Shown: in pieces, positions 13,827 to 39,809 of the stretch
Layout of the letters: the number at the start of each line of letters is the position of its first letter
How positions within the stretch are numbered: the first letter of the stretch is position 1
NCBI GenBank assembly: GCA_039804165.1
Contig: JBDRZZ010000013.1
Coordinates: forward strand, 1-47,262
Length of the DNA stretch: 47,262 nucleotides
From: a candidate division WOR-3 bacterium
GTDB lineage: Bacteria > Hydrothermota > UBA3072
Reading direction: 5' to 3'
Position numbers and translations under genes: made by a program
The notes under the pieces: generated by a model
Told to the model about the DNA's origin: nothing
The model's database searches: none
The model's input: only the letters and a program-made list of their open reading frames with translations

Positions 13827-14924
13827 TTACTTCGCCTCAAAGTGGCTCCAGGAATAATTACCAACATATTTAATAATCCACGCTCCATTTATCTTTGCTG
13901 GCATCTGACTGGCTGAAACATATTTATTTGTGAGATCAACTCCGTTCACATTGAGTTCCTGTAGATTCCAGGAGTTAATGTAGTTGCAGGAAGTCAAAGA
14001 CCAGCAGAAAGTTCCTGAGCCATCTTTTGTGAATGGCGCACTTATTGAAGTCGGATTACTGCAGGGTGCAGTTCCACCTCCACTTGTCGTCGTCGTTGTT
14101 CCACTTGTAGTCGTAGTTGTTGTTGTGCCGCTTGTAGTAGTTGTTGTGCTTGGCCACCACCACCACCATCCACTGGTTGTAGTTGTTGAACCACTTGTCG
14201 TGGTGGTAGTTGAAGTGCTAGTGGTAGTAGCGCTTGTTGTTGTGGTAGTTGAAGTGCTAGTGGTTGTCGAACCACCTCCACCACAAGTAAAGGTAGCTGT
14301 TCCAGATCCAACCCAATGAGTATACCACTCACTATTAGGAACAGAGACAGTAGCACTACCACTACCTGAACTCCAAGATTCCACTGCTACCACTTGATAG
14401 TTATTGCTACCCACACTTAATCCCAGGCTTTTCCACCCATTATAATGACAGTTCATATCTATAGGTTGACTACCTCCACTAGCAAAATACTGAGTAAAAG
14501 TCGCAGTACCCTCAATAGAAGGTTGATTCACCCTCTGCTCTGTCCCCACTGTCCAAGTTGTCCCACTACAAGTATAAGAACCTTTTGTTGAGCCTCCACT
14601 CCTTGGGATATAATATTCTACCAGCGGGTTTTGAAGCCAACCATAAACCCCTGGTCCCCAATTACAACCGCTGCAACTACCAGAGTAACTTATGGTTCTT
14701 GTTGAACCAGTGCTCCAACCTAAACCTGTAACAAAATTAGCACTACTGAAAGTAACCTTAAAACTCCCAGCGGTGCAGCTACCTGATGAATAGTCATCTC
14801 TCGTCTTACCAGATCCTACATCCATTTTTGACGGAGCTGTTGGATGATTTTGACATCCCCAGATGAAGACTATTGCTGCTAAAACAATTGTTCCAATTAT
14901 TATTAATAAACGCCTTAAATTCAT
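13827..14924 (-). CDS. GH11 endo-1,4-beta-xylanase lipoprotein with C-terminal module
   Basis: A 365-residue surface xylanase. The lipoprotein signal ends at FIWGC. The GH11 jelly roll covers about 45-215, with GVYGWLQNPLVEYYI (nucleophile Glu103), RVNQPSIEGTATFTQY (the thumb-region signature) and QVVAVESW (acid/base Glu182). A Thr/Ser linker with five consecutive Trp follows (SGWWWWWPS). A C-terminal domain of about 80 residues (CWSLTSCNYINSWNLQELNVNG) looks like a carbohydrate-binding module of a kind I cannot name with certainty. AAAGGAGG precedes the ATG. The catalytic part is a paralogue of the next gene upstream (15422-16486), while the C-terminal module is unrelated to it. It cuts internal xylan bonds at the cell surface. 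Confidence 0.92.
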   Translation of the reverse strand: MNLRRLLIIIGTIVLAAIVFIWGCQNHPTAPSKMDVGSGKTRDDYSSGSCTAGSFKVTFSSANFVTGLGWSTGSTRTISYSGSCSGCNWGPGVYGWLQNPLVEYYIPRSGGSTKGSYTCSGTTWTVGTEQRVNQPSIEGTATFTQYFASGGSQPIDMNCHYNGWKSLGLSVGSNNYQVVAVESWSSGSGSATVSVPNSEWYTHWVGSGTATFTCGGGGSTTTSTSTTTTTSATTTSTSTTTTTSGSTTTTSGWWWWWPSTTTTTSGTTTTTTTSGTTTTTSGGGTAPCSNPTSISAPFTKDGSGTFCWSLTSCNYINSWNLQELNVNGVDLTNKYVSASQMPAKINGAWIIKYVGNYSWSHFEAK

Positions 14925-15421: not shown

Positions 15422-16486
15422 CTAAATGTCACCGTAACCAATGCAACCATTGCAATGTAACCACTCGCAGTAGCTCTTGCCGCACTTATTATTTGAACTA
15501 TCCCAGCATCCTGTATTGTAGCTCTGGTTTTCTGACTGACGGGTTGAGCCATTCACCTGAATATAATCTACCTGAACATCCCTACCACTTCCATCATTGG
15601 TAAAGCATACATTAGTTCCACCACTTCTTGTAGTAGTAGCAGTATAATTTGACATACTCGTTGATAAAGTCCAGGTAGCAACTGTGCTTCCACCTACTGT
15701 CAACTGAATCTGCTCGCTCCCAGATGTTCCTCTTGCCCTCACTACAATGGTTTTTGAGCCACCACTAGTTGTAGTGGTTGTTCCACTTGTCGTTGTAGTT
15801 GTTGTTGAGCCACTTGTAGTCGTAGTTGTTGTTGAGCCACTACTACCGCAAGAATAAGATACTGAACCAGATTCAGACCAAACTGAATACCAGTTCGCAC
15901 CACTAACTGTCATAGTAGCACTTCCAGTATTCCCACTCCAACCTTCTGCCAACACTATCTGATAATTCTGACTTCCTACAGAAGCTCCAAGATTCCTCCA
16001 AGCGTTAAAGTGACAACCCATATCAACAGGGCTTGCTGTACTTCCACTGCAGTTATACTGCTGGAAAGTCTTAGTTCCTTCAATGGAAGGCGCATTGTTT
16101 CGGGTAGTTATCTGCAGGGTATATGAACGACCATTGCAGGAATAAGAACCTTTGCTTGACCCTCCACTCTTCCCAATATAATATTCTACAAGTGGGTTCT
16201 GCAACCATCCATAAACACCAAGACCCCAGCTGCAACCACTACAGCTACCGGACCAGCTTATAGTTCTAGAGGCTCCTGAACTCCACCCTTGACCAGCAGT
16301 AAAAACTGCATTTTGGAAAGTAACTTTAAAAGTTCCGGAACAGCTACCTGAACTATATCCTCTCACTTTGGTTCCTGCATCTATCTTTGACTCAGGAGCT
16401 GTTGGATGATTCTGACATCCCCAGATGAAGACTATTGCTGCTAAAACAATTGTTCCAAATATTATTAATAAACGCCTTAAACTCAT
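15422..16486 (-). CDS. GH11 endo-1,4-beta-xylanase lipoprotein with CBM60-like module
   Basis: A 354-residue paralogue of the neighbouring xylanase. The lipoprotein signal again ends in FIWGC. GH11 motifs are GVYGWLQNPLVEYYI (nucleophile Glu101), NAPSIEGTKTFQQY and QIVLAEGW (acid/base Glu181). A Thr-rich linker leads to a CBM36/60-type calcium-dependent xylan-binding module: TIVVRARGTSGSEQIQL, then GRDVQVDYIQVNG, then EWLHCNGCIGYGD. This arrangement recalls Cellvibrio-type xylanases. The N-terminal 40 residues, catalytic domain and leader match the other GH11 gene, but the binding module does not. AAAGGAGG precedes the ATG. A perfect terminator follows. It probably anchors on the outer membrane and binds xylan directly. 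Confidence 0.94.
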   Translation of the reverse strand: MSLRRLLIIFGTIVLAAIVFIWGCQNHPTAPESKIDAGTKVRGYSSGSCSGTFKVTFQNAVFTAGQGWSSGASRTISWSGSCSGCSWGLGVYGWLQNPLVEYYIGKSGGSSKGSYSCNGRSYTLQITTRNNAPSIEGTKTFQQYNCSGSTASPVDMGCHFNAWRNLGASVGSQNYQIVLAEGWSGNTGSATMTVSGANWYSVWSESGSVSYSCGSSGSTTTTTTSGSTTTTTTSGTTTTTSGGSKTIVVRARGTSGSEQIQLTVGGSTVATWTLSTSMSNYTATTTRSGGTNVCFTNDGSGRDVQVDYIQVNGSTRQSENQSYNTGCWDSSNNKCGKSYCEWLHCNGCIGYGDI

Positions 16487-19934: not shown

Positions 19935-20156
19935 TTGGAAGAGAAAATAAAAAGAGTTTTAGAGAAAGAGATAAAACCGTATTTAAAAAGTCACGGTGGA
20001 GACGTGAAATTAATAAGCGTCTCTGAAGATGGAATAGTAAAATTGAAACTTATAGGAGCCTGTGGTGGATGCCCAATGGCAGAAATGACTTTAAGAGGAT
20101 TTGTAGAAAGAGCTCTAAAAAGTAAAGTGCCTGAAATAAAAAAAGTTATATCTTAA
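19935..20156 (+). CDS. NifU C-terminal-domain iron-sulfur protein
   Basis: A 73-residue stand-alone NifU-like (Nfu) domain. It starts at TTG with GAGGA four bases ahead. The SHGGDVKL segment and Cys43-x2-Cys46 in GACGGCPM are the family signature; paired domains hold a 4Fe-4S cluster and deliver it to target proteins. No nif or suf genes are nearby, so this is general iron-sulfur assembly and not nitrogen fixation. The stop codon overlaps that of the convergent TPR gene by four bases. Confidence 0.9.
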   Translation: MEEKIKRVLEKEIKPYLKSHGGDVKLISVSEDGIVKLKLIGACGGCPMAEMTLRGFVERALKSKVPEIKKVIS

Positions 20157-21193
20157 TTTTTATTTATACATCTTTTCCATATCTGGGAAAAAATTCGAGC
20201 AGAGTCACTTTTACCTTCTTTCTCGTAAATATCTGACAAAATTTTATATGGATCGCAATTGGTAGAATCAATCTTTAAAGCTTCCTTTAAAGCTGAAATT
20301 GCTTCTTGATATTTCTCCCCATAAAATTCCCCTAATCCAAGAAGAATGTAAGCATCAGCTCTTTTAGTTGAGTTAAGAGGCAAAGAAAGAATTCTCTCAG
20401 CTATATTTTTCAAACGAGTATAATCTTCTTTTTCCAAATAAGCATATCCGAGACTATAAAGCACTTCTGGATCATCTTCTCTAATAGAGAGCGCTTTCTC
20501 TAAAGCGTCTATACTAAGATTGTATTGCCCAAGCTTTAGGTAATTCCTCCCGAGTAACTTATTCACTTCAAAATTTTCTGAATTAACAAATTTAGCTTTT
20601 TTAAGATGAAAAATGGCTTTTTCATTCTCTCCCTTATCTGTATAGATCTCTCCTAAGGCAAGATGGGCTTCAAAATTTAGAGAATCCCATTCAAAAATTG
20701 TAGAAATACAATTAACTGCTTCTTCCTCTTTCCCCTCTCTAATTAATGCTTTCCCTTTAAGAAGATAAGCTTGAATTTTTTGATAAGAAAGAAGTTCAAG
20801 TTCTTCCAATTTTTCTAACATTTCCAAAACTTTCTCATTCTCCCCATCCAAAAAGAAAGACTCCGCCCCATTATAGAAAACCGAAAAACCATAACCTGAG
20901 ATTCCTAACAGTTCTTCATAATATTTTATACCTTCTTCTGTTGAATCCTTATTAATATCAAAAGCTTTCTTTAAGTATTCCGCAGAATTTTTATAATCTT
21001 TTTTCATATAATAAGGGACAGATAGAGAAACATAAGCTTGGGGATTCTCAGGCTCTATTTCTATCCAATTCTTAAATTGGACAATCGCCTTTTCATATTG
21101 TTCACTTTTAATAAAAAGATCCCCTCTTAACTTACATTCCTTTTCACAACCCCAAAAAAGAAAAAGTATTACTATATTAAATATTCTTTTAAT
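20153..21193 (-). CDS. TPR-repeat lipoprotein with probable AUU start
   Basis: An unnamed tetratricopeptide protein with at least five TPR units (AHLALGEIYTDKGENEKAIFHLKKA, then LLGRNYLKLGQYNLSIDALEKAL, then SLGYAYLEKEDY). Such arrays scaffold protein complexes. The first NTG start in frame is ATG at 21007, but coding continues upstream without a stop through QYEKAIVQFKNWIEIEPENP (another TPR) to a lipoprotein signal, KRIFNIVILFLFWGC. AAGGAGG (21204-21198) sits four bases before the codon that would start this signal, which is ATT (21193-21191). A promoter lies at the right distance. The full protein would be 346 residues. A sequencing error turning ATG into ATT would explain it equally well. 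Confidence 0.72.
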   Translation of the reverse strand: MKRIFNIVILFLFWGCEKECKLRGDLFIKSEQYEKAIVQFKNWIEIEPENPQAYVSLSVPYYMKKDYKNSAEYLKKAFDINKDSTEEGIKYYEELLGISGYGFSVFYNGAESFFLDGENEKVLEMLEKLEELELLSYQKIQAYLLKGKALIREGKEEEAVNCISTIFEWDSLNFEAHLALGEIYTDKGENEKAIFHLKKAKFVNSENFEVNKLLGRNYLKLGQYNLSIDALEKALSIREDDPEVLYSLGYAYLEKEDYTRLKNIAERILSLPLNSTKRADAYILLGLGEFYGEKYQEAISALKEALKIDSTNCDPYKILSDIYEKEGKSDSARIFSQIWKRCINKN

Positions 21194-21218
21194 TTTTCCT
21201 CCTTCATTATAGTTGGAT

Positions 21219-21246
21219 ATATTAAGTTAAATTTCTCAACTGTCAA
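21219..21246 (-). promoter_or_regulatory. Promoter of the TPR lipoprotein gene
   Basis: Minus strand: TTGACA (21246-21241), 16 bp, TAATAT (21224-21219). Transcription should start near 21212, ahead of the AAGGAGG site, supporting a translation start near 21193 and not 21007. Confidence 0.65.
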
Positions 21247-21289: not shown

Positions 21290-22381
21290 ATGCGACCTTC
21301 CAGAGTTGAAATAAACTTAAGAAATTTGGAAAATAATATAAGGATAGCGAAAGAGAAATTAGGGAATCAAAAAAAACTTCTTGCTGTTGTAAAAGCAGAT
21401 GCGTATGGACATGGAGCAATTGCTATCTCCTCCAGAGCTATTGCCATGGGGGTGGATTTTCTTGGGGTAGGAATAGTAGAAGAAGGTATTGAGTTAAGAA
21501 ATGCAGGGATACAAGCAAATATTGTAATTTTATCCCAAGAATTAAAAGAAAGAGCAGAAGAAATTCTACTTTTTAACCTTATACCAACTGTTTGCTCGAG
21601 AGATTTCTTAGAAAGCCTTGAAAAAGAAGGAGAGAGACAAAAAAAAGAAGTCCCAATATTCCTTAAGGTAGACACAGGAATGGGAAGATTTGGAGTTTCT
21701 CCTGATGAATTTATATATTTTATAAAACTTATCAAAAATTTTAAATTTGTAAAACTTATAGGTGCATTCTCACATTTCCCAAGTGCTGATTCGGATGAAA
21801 TTTTTACAAGAGAGCAACTCAAAAATTTTAAAGAATTAATAAGGGTTGCCTCTAATCTTGGAATAGAAATTCCAATAAAAAGCATTGCAAATTCTGCGGC
21901 TTTTCTACTTTATAAAGACTCTTTATTCAATATGGTAAGACTCGGCCTTTTATTATACGGAATTTCACCTATTGAGGATTTCCCCCTACTGGATTATAAA
22001 CCTGTAATGAGTGTAAAAAGTAAGATTTCTTTTATCAAAACTATTCCTCCAGGGCATTCTGTAAGTTATGGTAGAACATTTATAGCCCAAAAACCCACAA
22101 CAGTCGCTACAGTTCCTATTGGGTATGCGGATGGCTATGACAGATCTCTTTCAAATAAGGGCTGGATGATAGTTAAAGGGGAAAAAGCTCCAGTTATTGG
22201 AAATGTTACAATGGACACAACAATGATAGATATCTCTCACATTGAAGGAGTAAAGATTGGAGATGAAGTAATAGTCATGAATGAGAAAATAACTGCTTGG
22301 GATATTGCTAAGGCTAGTGGAACAATCCCTTACGAAATCATTTCAAGGATGGGGAAAAGACTTCCAAGATTATATGTCTAA
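21290..22381 (+). CDS. alr: Alanine racemase
   Basis: A PLP enzyme converting L- to D-alanine for peptidoglycan, 363 residues, a normal length. PLP binds Lys35 in AVVKADAYGHG; the second catalytic base is Tyr260 in GHSVSYGRTF. VDTGMGRFG, GYADGYDR and GNVTMDTTMID are further family blocks. The gene stands alone with a leaderless promoter and ends six bases from the convergent HEAT-protein gene. Confidence 0.96.
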   Translation: MRPSRVEINLRNLENNIRIAKEKLGNQKKLLAVVKADAYGHGAIAISSRAIAMGVDFLGVGIVEEGIELRNAGIQANIVILSQELKERAEEILLFNLIPTVCSRDFLESLEKEGERQKKEVPIFLKVDTGMGRFGVSPDEFIYFIKLIKNFKFVKLIGAFSHFPSADSDEIFTREQLKNFKELIRVASNLGIEIPIKSIANSAAFLLYKDSLFNMVRLGLLLYGISPIEDFPLLDYKPVMSVKSKISFIKTIPPGHSVSYGRTFIAQKPTTVATVPIGYADGYDRSLSNKGWMIVKGEKAPVIGNVTMDTTMIDISHIEGVKIGDEVIVMNEKITAWDIAKASGTIPYEIISRMGKRLPRLYV

Positions 22382-22387
22382 ATTTTA

Positions 22388-25135
22388 TTAACCCTTAGAT
22401 AAGCTTTCTAAAACCAAAGTCCTTATCTTTTTAGAGTAATCCTTTGTCAAAGATTTAAGAATTTCTTCGGCTTTTACCCCTCCTATTTCAGCTACAGCTT
22501 TAGTAGCTTTATACCTTAGATCTTCTGGAAATTCCGGAATTCCAAACACCTTTTTTGCTCTTATTATTTGAGATAAAGCATCTATTGATTCACTATTACC
22601 TTTTATTGCAAGTATATCGCAAATAAGCTTCTTTATCTCTATTTCCCATTCCCTGGGAAAAGTGTTTAAAAGTAATCTTCTATTTAAAGCCTTTAACCCT
22701 TCTTCAGAAATAATTCCTTGAAGTGTAGAAAGAACGTATTGCTGAACCTCAGGATAAGCCGAATCTAAAAAAGGTAATAAATAAGATTCTGCATCTTCTT
22801 TCAAAATATGCTTTAGTACTCTCACAATCTCTATTTGAACTTTTGGGTGGTCATCTTTTAGTGCATATATTTCATCTAAAACTTCTCTTCCTCCAATACT
22901 ACCTATAATTAAAACGGCATTCCTTCTTACATACCATCTCGGGTCATGCAAGTATTTCCTTACAAAATCAACAGCAGGTTTACCAATACCTCTTATTATC
23001 TTTAAAAGTGAAAATCTAACTTCTTTATCCTCCGAGTCTTTAAGCAATTCCATTAAATAAGGGACAGAATCCACGCCAAACTCATTAACCTCTTTTAACA
23101 CAATCTCTCTTAAATCTTTTTCCCATAAAAGAGAAAGCAAAACATTTATAGCTTCTTTAGAATTAAATTTCACAAGATATGGAACAATAACTTTCGCTTT
23201 CTCTACACTACTCACTTCTCCCGCAAAAAATGAAACAACATTATTTGATAAAAAAGAATACTCCATTGTTATACTTTTAATTCCTATTTCACTTAGAAGT
23301 TTTATATATTCCTCATAAATCTCTTTCTCTTCTTCCTTCCGCGAATACTCAATTAATTTCTCTACAATATTCCGGATAATAATTGTCTTTCCTCCTTTAA
23401 AAAACTGCTCTATAAGCTCCCTAATATTTCCTAAGGAGCTTAACTTAACTTCCTTAGATTCTGCTTCAAGATTTTTATAAATAGAATCAAGTAAAGCCTT
23501 CACATCTCCTAATTCCATACTCGTTTTCAATTTATCTTTAAGACGAGTATAAGCTGTTCTACTAACTCCTCCAATCGGCCTTATCTTTTCAGGAGGATGG
23601 GTCAACTTCTCCCAAAACTTAGAAAAAAGTTCGTCTTTAATTCCTTTTTTACCCACTTCCTTTCTTAAAATTTCTTTAATAAAATCTAACCTATCCGAAG
23701 AAAGAGAAGACAAAAAGCCTTCTAAGCCTTCCCTTTCTCCCTCTTCAACCAAGTGAATAAGAAGGGAAACAACACTTTCATCATCCATAATTGGCAATAA
23801 AATCTTTGCCATTGTAAGTTTTAAGGGACTATCACTTTTTATAATTCTAAAAAACACCTCTTTTCTAACACTTAAAGGAACCTCTTTCATAGCCTTTCTA
23901 ATTTTCAAAGATTGAAGAAATAGTTTATCCTCTCCAAATTGTCTTACAAATTCTCTTATAAAATTCTCAAAACCTATATAAACCTTTTCCTTATCTTCCT
24001 CCTCTCCTTTTTTAATTAGAAAAACCGATTCAAAAAAATTTGCAATTTCCGAAGTTCCATAATCTTCTTCCTTTACCTCGGAAAAATTTTTTATGAAATC
24101 GGAAAGCTCACTTAAGGCACCCTCCTTTGCAGAAATTCTCTCTTCAGGACCTTTTCCCTTCTCAATTTTCTCTTTCACTCTTTTCTCAAGTTCTATTATA
24201 TATTTCTCTTCCACATCCATTAATTTTAAATTTTCCTTTATTTGTGGCAAAATTCTATCCAACCTCTCTGGAGTAAGATTTATAAGTAAATCTTCTGCAT
24301 CAGCCAATCCTAAGGCTTTAACTCTACTAACAAAAATCTCTACTATCTCCTCATCCGAAAAACTCATTATTATAGACTTTATTATTGAGGAAATCTGTTT
24401 AAGTTTAATTTTATCCTGAATTATAAATCTCTTTACCTCGGGAGGTATTGAGCTCATAACTTTCTCAAAAATAGCCTTTCGTGTTCCAATTCCTTTTTCA
24501 CCAGGAAAAGAGGAAATCTTGTCGTATAAATTAACGAGACCCTTTGTAATTTTTTCTGCTTCTTCAATAGGAGAATCCTCCTTTTTTATTCCACAAATAT
24601 TTTCAAAAAATTCCTTTAGATTAAATTCTTCTTCCTTAGAAATTGATTTCTCCTCTTTCCCTTCAACCATCCCCTCTAAACCAATCGGGACTTCCTCTCC
24701 TTTTGCCTTTATCCGAAATTCCACTGTATTGAAATAGATATTATCAACTTTCCTTTCTATTAAAAGAGTGTTTACATCATCATATAATCGGATATCTTTT
24801 GGAGGATGGGCTAAAATATCCAGAAATCCTCCCACATCCATCTCATTACAGCTCGTATCAAAAGTTAAGCTTTCAACATTTAATCGGGTTAACCTCTTTA
24901 CAAATATTTCAATACTCGGGAAGCCTGAGATATCAACATTTAAATCTTCCATTATCACATTATCCCCTAAAAAGACAATCGAGATTTCATTTGTTTCTTC
25001 CGCGAAAGTATTAAGTAAATCTATGATCTTCCTTTCTTGTTCTTTTACAATAGGATGATCCCCAGGATAGGCAATTTTATAATTTACTCCAAGAGCAAGC
25101 TCTTTAAGAAAATTAATTAATTTTTCTTTTTCTAT
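22388..25135 (-). CDS. Large HEAT-repeat protein with probable AUA start
   Basis: A cytoplasmic protein of about 915 residues, not assigned to a named family. The N-terminal 130 residues (INFLKELALGVNYKIAYPGDHPIVKEQERKI) resemble the YPxxHP domain that often precedes HEAT arrays. The middle is charged and helical. The last third holds HEAT/PBS-lyase-like repeats (VRFSLLKIIRGIGKPAVDFV, DPRWYVRRNAVLIIGSIGG), a scaffold fold. An ATG at 25174 is in frame, but the gene's promoter spans it, so that ATG should not be transcribed. TGGAGGAGG (25147-25139) instead precedes ATA at 25135, followed by EKEKLINFL. The next in-frame NTG codon lies far downstream. The start is therefore probably AUA, or a miscalled ATG. 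Confidence 0.72.
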   Translation of the reverse strand: MEKEKLINFLKELALGVNYKIAYPGDHPIVKEQERKIIDLLNTFAEETNEISIVFLGDNVIMEDLNVDISGFPSIEIFVKRLTRLNVESLTFDTSCNEMDVGGFLDILAHPPKDIRLYDDVNTLLIERKVDNIYFNTVEFRIKAKGEEVPIGLEGMVEGKEEKSISKEEEFNLKEFFENICGIKKEDSPIEEAEKITKGLVNLYDKISSFPGEKGIGTRKAIFEKVMSSIPPEVKRFIIQDKIKLKQISSIIKSIIMSFSDEEIVEIFVSRVKALGLADAEDLLINLTPERLDRILPQIKENLKLMDVEEKYIIELEKRVKEKIEKGKGPEERISAKEGALSELSDFIKNFSEVKEEDYGTSEIANFFESVFLIKKGEEEDKEKVYIGFENFIREFVRQFGEDKLFLQSLKIRKAMKEVPLSVRKEVFFRIIKSDSPLKLTMAKILLPIMDDESVVSLLIHLVEEGEREGLEGFLSSLSSDRLDFIKEILRKEVGKKGIKDELFSKFWEKLTHPPEKIRPIGGVSRTAYTRLKDKLKTSMELGDVKALLDSIYKNLEAESKEVKLSSLGNIRELIEQFFKGGKTIIIRNIVEKLIEYSRKEEEKEIYEEYIKLLSEIGIKSITMEYSFLSNNVVSFFAGEVSSVEKAKVIVPYLVKFNSKEAINVLLSLLWEKDLREIVLKEVNEFGVDSVPYLMELLKDSEDKEVRFSLLKIIRGIGKPAVDFVRKYLHDPRWYVRRNAVLIIGSIGGREVLDEIYALKDDHPKVQIEIVRVLKHILKEDAESYLLPFLDSAYPEVQQYVLSTLQGIISEEGLKALNRRLLLNTFPREWEIEIKKLICDILAIKGNSESIDALSQIIRAKKVFGIPEFPEDLRYKATKAVAEIGGVKAEEILKSLTKDYSKKIRTLVLESLSKG

Positions 25136-38725: not shown

Positions 38726-38897
38726 TAATTTCCTCCACTTCTACAAGATGAGAAACTTTCTTAATCATTCCTCTTATGCTAGGAGTATCTTTATGAACAA
38801 CCACATCGTTAATCTTTTTTAACCCAAGAGCTTTTAATGTGGCTTTTTGTCTCTTATTTGAACCTATCTTACTTCTAATTTGCTTAATTCGAAGCAT
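38715..38897 (-). CDS. rpmD: Ribosomal protein L30
   Basis: A 60-residue protein: [20 protein letters not shown], then [21 protein letters not shown]. This is the short bacterial form. It overlaps rpsE by 14 bases. Confidence 0.95.
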
Positions 38898-39420
38898 CTT
38901 TTATCACCTCAATTCTCCTTCTACCTTTCAACATCTCCTCTATTGACTTTCCCCTAAGTTCTGCAAACTCTTCAGGAGTTCTCATCCTAAGCAAGGCGTT
39001 ATAAACAGCAATTATGTTATTAAATGGATTATTTGAACCAAGGCATTTTGTAAGAACATCTTTATACCCTCCAAGTTCAAATATAGCCCTAAGTTTATCA
39101 TTTGCAATAATACCTGTTCCAGGAGTTGCTGGCTTTATCAAAACTTTTGCCGATTTATACTTTGTGATTAAAGAATAAGGAATCGAAGTCCCAACAATAG
39201 GAACTCTTATTAATCTACCTCTTGCATCTTTAATCGCCTTTTGAATTGCCGCTGGAACTTCATCAGCCTTACCATGCCCATACCCAACAATACCCGCTCG
39301 GTTTCCTACTACAACCCATACGGAGTATCTGAATTTCTTCCCTCCTTTCACAACCTTCGAAACACGGTTAATGCTAATAACCTTCTCTTCAAATTCATAC
39401 TCCCGAGGATCTATTTTCAA
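38884..39420 (-). CDS. rpsE: Ribosomal protein S5
   Basis: A small-subunit protein important for decoding accuracy, at least 178 residues. The double-stranded-RNA-binding domain ([21 protein letters not shown], then [20 protein letters not shown]) and the S5 C-terminal domain ([22 protein letters not shown]) are clear. The first NTG codon is TTG at 39420, which has no ribosome-binding site. Nine codons upstream, ATT at 39447 stands six bases after GGAGG (39458-39454) in the end of rplR and would add MLSEFVKSR. The start may therefore be AUU; if so the gene runs to 39447. Confidence 0.95.
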
Positions 39421-39440
39421 CCGAGATTTTACAAACTCAC

Positions 39441-39809
39441 TTAAAATTTTAAACCTCCTTCTCTCGCACCTTCAGCGAGACTTTTAACACAACCATGGTA
39501 AGCAAATCTACCTTTATCAAAAACCACCTTTTCTATATTTTCTTTCTTACATCTCTCAGCTAAAAAGATACCAATTTCTTTTGCCTTTTCTTTTAATGTC
39601 TTCCCTTTTAATTTCTCTCTTATTTCCTTATCCAAAGTGCTTGCCTGAACCAAAGTATGACCTTTAAAATCATCAATCACTTGAGCGTATATATGTTTGT
39701 TCGTCCTCACAACTGATAAACGAGGCCTCTCTGAAGTTCCAAAAATCTTACTTCTTACCCTCAACTTCCTCCTCTGTCTTCTTATTTTAGTCCTTTCAAC
39801 CTCTCCCAT
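39441..39809 (-). CDS. rplR: Ribosomal protein L18
   Basis: A 122-residue 5S-rRNA-binding protein. [38 protein letters not shown] and the C-terminal [26 protein letters not shown] are characteristic. The last codons contain the AAGGAGG that probably serves rpsE. It overlaps rplF by one base. Confidence 0.97.

Follow-up and report, generated by a model that had tools for sequence, protein, structure and literature searches.

The question raised by this locus is whether a gene for a TPR-repeat protein, probably of the cell envelope, found in a window of 47,262 nucleotides (the whole stretch of DNA analysed here) from a candidate division WOR-3 bacterium, is translated from an AUU codon, and which other genes of the family share that kind of start. 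The features of the start region, each with its support in brackets, are the following.

21219..21246, minus strand: sigma-70-like promoter, TTGACA-16-TAATAT (motif match; TTGACA also upstream in the congener G003)
21198..21204, minus strand: Shine-Dalgarno sequence AAGGAGG (sequence)
21191..21193, minus strand: proposed AUU start codon, 4 nt 3' of the Shine-Dalgarno sequence (ATT in G003 too)
20153..21193, minus strand: TPR-repeat protein gene, 346 residues from the AUU (Pfam TPR matches, congener ortholog)
21290..22381, plus strand: alr (alanine racemase), divergent neighbour of the TPR gene (NCBIfam TIGR00492; same layout in G003)

Read along the minus strand, TTGACA (21246-21241), 16 nt and TAATAT (21224-21219) are followed by the Shine-Dalgarno (SD) sequence AAGGAGG (21204-21198), an AAAA spacer and ATT (21193-21191), and the frame from ATT reads I/M-KRIFNIVILFLFWGCEKEC, the residues after the ATT being K R I F N I V I L F L F W G C. 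This agrees with an earlier sequence-only reading, which had placed ATT four bases past AAGGAGG and in frame with the TPR open reading frame (ORF), and its further claim that no NTG codon occurs until 62 codons later was exact, as the stop-to-stop ORF spans 20153-21226 and its first ATG, GTG or TTG is the ATG at 21007, exactly 62 codons past the ATT and with no SD 5' of it. The same reading had proposed the promoter, whose elements are indeed present at 21246-21219, but shuffled sequence yields such matches at least as often (3 found against 4.7 expected), so that the promoter match is not significant by itself; TTGACA is present upstream of the counterpart in G003 as well. An 11-residue ORF in another frame, MKEEKLKEYLI (window 21172-21207, minus strand), was also noticed, which overlaps the SD and AUU of the TPR gene and begins a few bases past the predicted transcription start; G003 has no ATG there.

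The TPR protein matched the Pfam profile TPR_2 above the curated cut-off (E=6.9e-27), and its N-terminus carries KR and then a hydrophobic stretch ending in Cys, with a putative lipobox, FWGC (CIAC in G003), that departs from the strict [LVI][ASTVI][GAS]C. Matches to the protein were found in all six family genomes, four of which match only a paralogue, and this paralogue, an ATG-starting gene present as a second copy in the window genome and G003, was set aside as uninformative on the start of the window gene. The true counterpart was found in the same genus (G003:C44, 46-47% protein identity), where it is divergent to alr as in the window, alr itself being 78.5% identical between the two. 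Homologues were compared for this one congener, and its gene also has SD-ATT at the N-terminus with no usable NTG: the start reads AAAAGGAGATACA-ATT-AAA-AAA, with AAAGGAG-ATACA-ATT as SD, spacer and start, the frame holds no NTG from the stop upstream as far as this ATT, and the earliest ones after it are codons 10-11, inside the hydrophobic signal and lacking an SD. The signal is 1 or 2 residues longer in G003, so that the two starts, whose conservation is a matter of two genomes, correspond as N-terminus and not residue by residue in an ungapped alignment. Elsewhere in the window, 13827-14924 and 15422-16486 (minus strand) hold two related lipoprotein-like genes, whose N-termini are nearly identical and whose linkers are rich in Ser and Thr.

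Two other accounts of the TPR gene have to be weighed against an AUU start. The ATT could be an assembly or consensus error, or the base of a minor strain, with ATG as the real codon, since ATG is one base away and a beginning MKRIF would be typical of a signal; yet SD-ATT is also read in the congener, where the flanking bases differ, and the occurrence of SD and ATT at the N-terminus in two separately assembled genomes is a strong argument against a base error. The ATT of rpsE, described below, is read in six assemblies. We hold this account to be very improbable. Alternatively, translation may begin at ATG 21007, the first in-frame NTG of the ORF, to give a shorter cytoplasmic TPR protein from which the upstream frame is left untranslated. 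Such a start would delete the signal and a TPR unit, as the sequence-only reading had stated and as confirmed by the position of both upstream of ATG 21007; it would leave the strong SD at 21204-21198 without a gene and would itself use an ATG preceded by no SD, and the congener has counterparts of the signal-like segment and first TPR unit that it discards (KLRGDLFIKSEQYEKAIVQF / KLSGDLFIKTGEYEKAVVQY). We give it hardly any credence. The AUU at 21193 is very probably the true start of the TPR gene.

According to the sequence-only reading, two more genes in the window show the same arrangement, which we assume to be rpsE and a HEAT-repeat gene. This stood for rpsE (ATT at 39447), and the HEAT-repeat gene (25135) is alike except that its codon is ATA, not ATT.

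39445..39447, minus strand: AUU proposed as the start of rpsE; it overlaps the stop of rplR in ATTTTAA (ATT in six of six family genomes)
38884..39447, minus strand: rpsE, ribosomal protein S5 (TIGR01021 above cut-off)
25133..25135, minus strand: AUA proposed as the start of the HEAT-repeat gene, 3' of AGGAGG-AAA (ATA, ATC, ATC and GTA in relatives; ATG in the sister family)
22388..25135, minus strand: HEAT-repeat protein gene (Pfam HEAT_2)

The rpsE product scored 201.7 bits against TIGR01021 (cut-off 164), and its start region, AAGGAGGT, has AAGGAGG, six bases and then ATT (39447-39445, minus strand). ATT is found at this place in all six family genomes, which represent five genera. In G002 and G005 the stretch from the in-frame stop upstream to the S5 core is free of NTG; in G001 the sole NTG is an internal GTG, eight codons short of the core; and the remaining family genomes have an NTG at codon 10 (39420 in the window) that lacks an SD. 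The first nine codons spell I-L-x-x-x-x-K-x-R, a peptide conserved among the family genomes while the codons change synonymously, which indicates that they are translated. The SD and ATT (39445-39460, minus strand) are encoded within the conserved L18 C-terminus of rplR (R-E-G-G-L-K-F-stop), and their invariance is partly forced because both sit in this conserved 3' end. Outside the family, ATG, GTG or TTG is available for rpsE in the other families of the phylum sample with the exception of G034, which reads AAGGAGG-GTTAAA-ATT with no NTG. S5 loci from many phyla were scored as well, and the TA06 member was the only one of the 62 without an NTG. The nearest named relatives of the S5 protein are MAGs of candidate division WOR-3, TA06 and Candidatus Stahlbacteria. 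An AUU on a ribosomal-protein gene, kept across the family, is the most surprising component of these results.

As rpsE lies in the -1 frame relative to rplR, whose stop codon comes right after a slippery T TTA AAA in the window, S5 might be made by -1 frameshifting out of rplR and not by initiation at AUU. The heptamer is absent in G001, G002 and G004, where SD-ATT is kept, and this leaves frameshifting with next to no chance of being correct.

The start of the HEAT-repeat gene is non-NTG in five of five family genomes, being ATA in the window and in G003, ATC in G002 and G001, and GTA in G004. No NTG with a usable SD was found at this start in the five, and the next NTG comes at codon 29 or beyond in three of them; in the sister family the aligned codon is ATG. 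The GTA of G004 (G004:C521:5639) follows GGGAGG-CACTC, and no NTG occurs there for 52 codons.

To see how common ATH starts are, 844 kb (43% of the genome, 714 gene models) were surveyed with strict filters, as SD-like words inside genes make a plain search for SD and codon noisy. Of 163 gene models with a 7-base SD near the ORF start, 138 carry an NTG in frame at a spacing of 3-9 nt, and the remainder included four real ATH cases, the others having an evident NTG elsewhere; the arrangement is therefore no product of chance. In all, five of the 714 models have convincing ATH starts with a strong SD (TPR, HEAT, rpsE, infC and a FeoA-like gene), a small number that came from a filter on SD strength and hence cannot show that such starts have stronger-than-average SDs. 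The ATH starts are a small gene set and not a general relaxation of start choice. The suggestion of a lineage trait made in the sequence-only reading thus held for rpsE and the HEAT-repeat gene, for which no family genome offers a usable canonical start, but it applies to about five genes per 43% of the genome. In the FeoA-like small ORF (G000:C6:22411-22656, minus strand) ATA comes after a perfect AAGGAGGTGA, and no NTG is well placed; this ORF was rejected as a conserved case, the aligned codon being ATG in G003.

The gene for initiation factor IF3, infC, classically starts on AUU, AUC or AUA and is autoregulated by IF3. It is present in six of six family genomes, and IF3 was found in all genomes searched. 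Its start is ATT after AGGAGGTAGGTT in the window genome, ATT in G003 and ATA in the other four family genomes, and in many other families of the phylum infC apparently starts on ATA, ATT or ATC. An altered initiator tRNA was considered as a cause of the unusual starts and rejected, the tRNA being ordinary in all six family genomes, with a normal CAU anticodon and a GGG/CCC stem (GGGCTCATAACCC in every one). The family IF3 has changes at R99 (to Y/F), R129 (to W), E159 (to Q) and R168 (to a non-basic residue; E. coli numbering), which fall mostly at positions variable elsewhere in the phylum and are at most a hint of relaxed start-codon checking.

The view that AUU initiation is well known only for infC, also part of the sequence-only reading, is not borne out by the literature, in which AUU, AUA and GUC starts are documented for cvfC1, ccpN and sigR, and ATC for rnhC. 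In S. aureus, retapamulin profiling and reporters established the starts of cvfC1 (AUU) and ccpN (AUA), which follow an extended SD and are conserved across species; AUU and AUA starts with such an SD gave about 10% of the output of AUG (PMC13009471). The new S. aureus examples are not ribosomal-protein genes (PMC13009471). The window genes resemble them in having AUU or AUA after an extended SD conserved across species, their starts being read from the sequence. Streptomyces sigR has a GTC start that is repressed by IF3 (PMC5472188); it is likewise a non-infC gene with a non-canonical start and an extended SD conserved in its lineage, and its drift between GTC and GTT parallels that of the HEAT-repeat gene among ATA, ATC and GTA, although repression by IF3 is proven in Streptomyces and inferred here, and the gene functions are unrelated (PMC5472188). 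For Listeria monocytogenes, in another phylum, fixed non-canonical starts are described in six genes, e.g., infC (ATT) and rnhC (ATC), a similar handful of conserved cases per genome (PMC13068326). The AUU of the TPR gene joins this known kind of non-canonical start, beyond infC. Like infC, which is itself on ATT in the window genome, the window genes have a conserved non-NTG start after a strong SD; unlike infC, the TPR, HEAT and rpsE genes do not encode IF3, and control through their starts would hit other genes with no self-feedback.

The AUU starts reported here are based on sequence, conservation and the absence of canonical alternatives. In the mechanism that we infer as the simplest, the ordinary initiator tRNA (anticodon CAU) would place fMet on the AUU of the TPR gene, the poor match at the third position being offset by the near-perfect SD. 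As a weak start of low efficiency, the AUU is expected to be rejected often by IF3, so that little TPR protein would be made, and more of it whenever IF3 runs short. The TPR gene would then be one of the few family genes on non-canonical starts, together with infC, rpsE, the HEAT-repeat gene and perhaps the FeoA-like gene. For rpsE, the overlap of the AUU with the rplR stop makes translational coupling probable, and ribosomes would be supplied by translation of rplR; re-initiation in E. coli is IF3-sensitive (PMC2268962).

Sensitivity of the TPR start to IF3 is a somewhat favoured prediction of this mechanism. What competes with it, and not with the AUU start itself, is the idea that AUU-type starts arose by drift and are tolerated, with no regulation and no sensing by IF3, a strong SD or coupling being enough for initiation whatever the codon. 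The ATA of the FeoA-like gene in one genome only, the partial fixation of the rpsE ATT by rplR coding and the lack of any known benefit of a weak start to the TPR gene all point that way; against it, the HEAT start has shifted among ATA, ATC and GTA in five genomes and never back to NTG. Mere drift keeps a real chance, although we consider it rather unlikely. The broadest version of IF3 sensing, in which infC, rpsE, HEAT and TPR on AUU, AUA or AUC (or GUA) form an IF3 regulon defined by start-codon identity in this WOR-3-lineage family, with synthesis tracking free IF3, is speculative, and we regard it as doubtful.

For annotation, gene finders that assume ATG, GTG or TTG truncate such proteins, and the TPR protein would lose its signal and a TPR unit. 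The HEAT start, changing yet never NTG, provides a clean case on selection and on the sensing of weak starts by IF3. A family-wide AUU on the gene of the core ribosomal protein S5, for which some species have no canonical alternative, calls into question the idea that highly expressed essential genes avoid AUU, and if the regulon reading were true, control of rpsE would act on the supply of 30S subunits, and ribosome production in this family would be tied to the level of an initiation factor.
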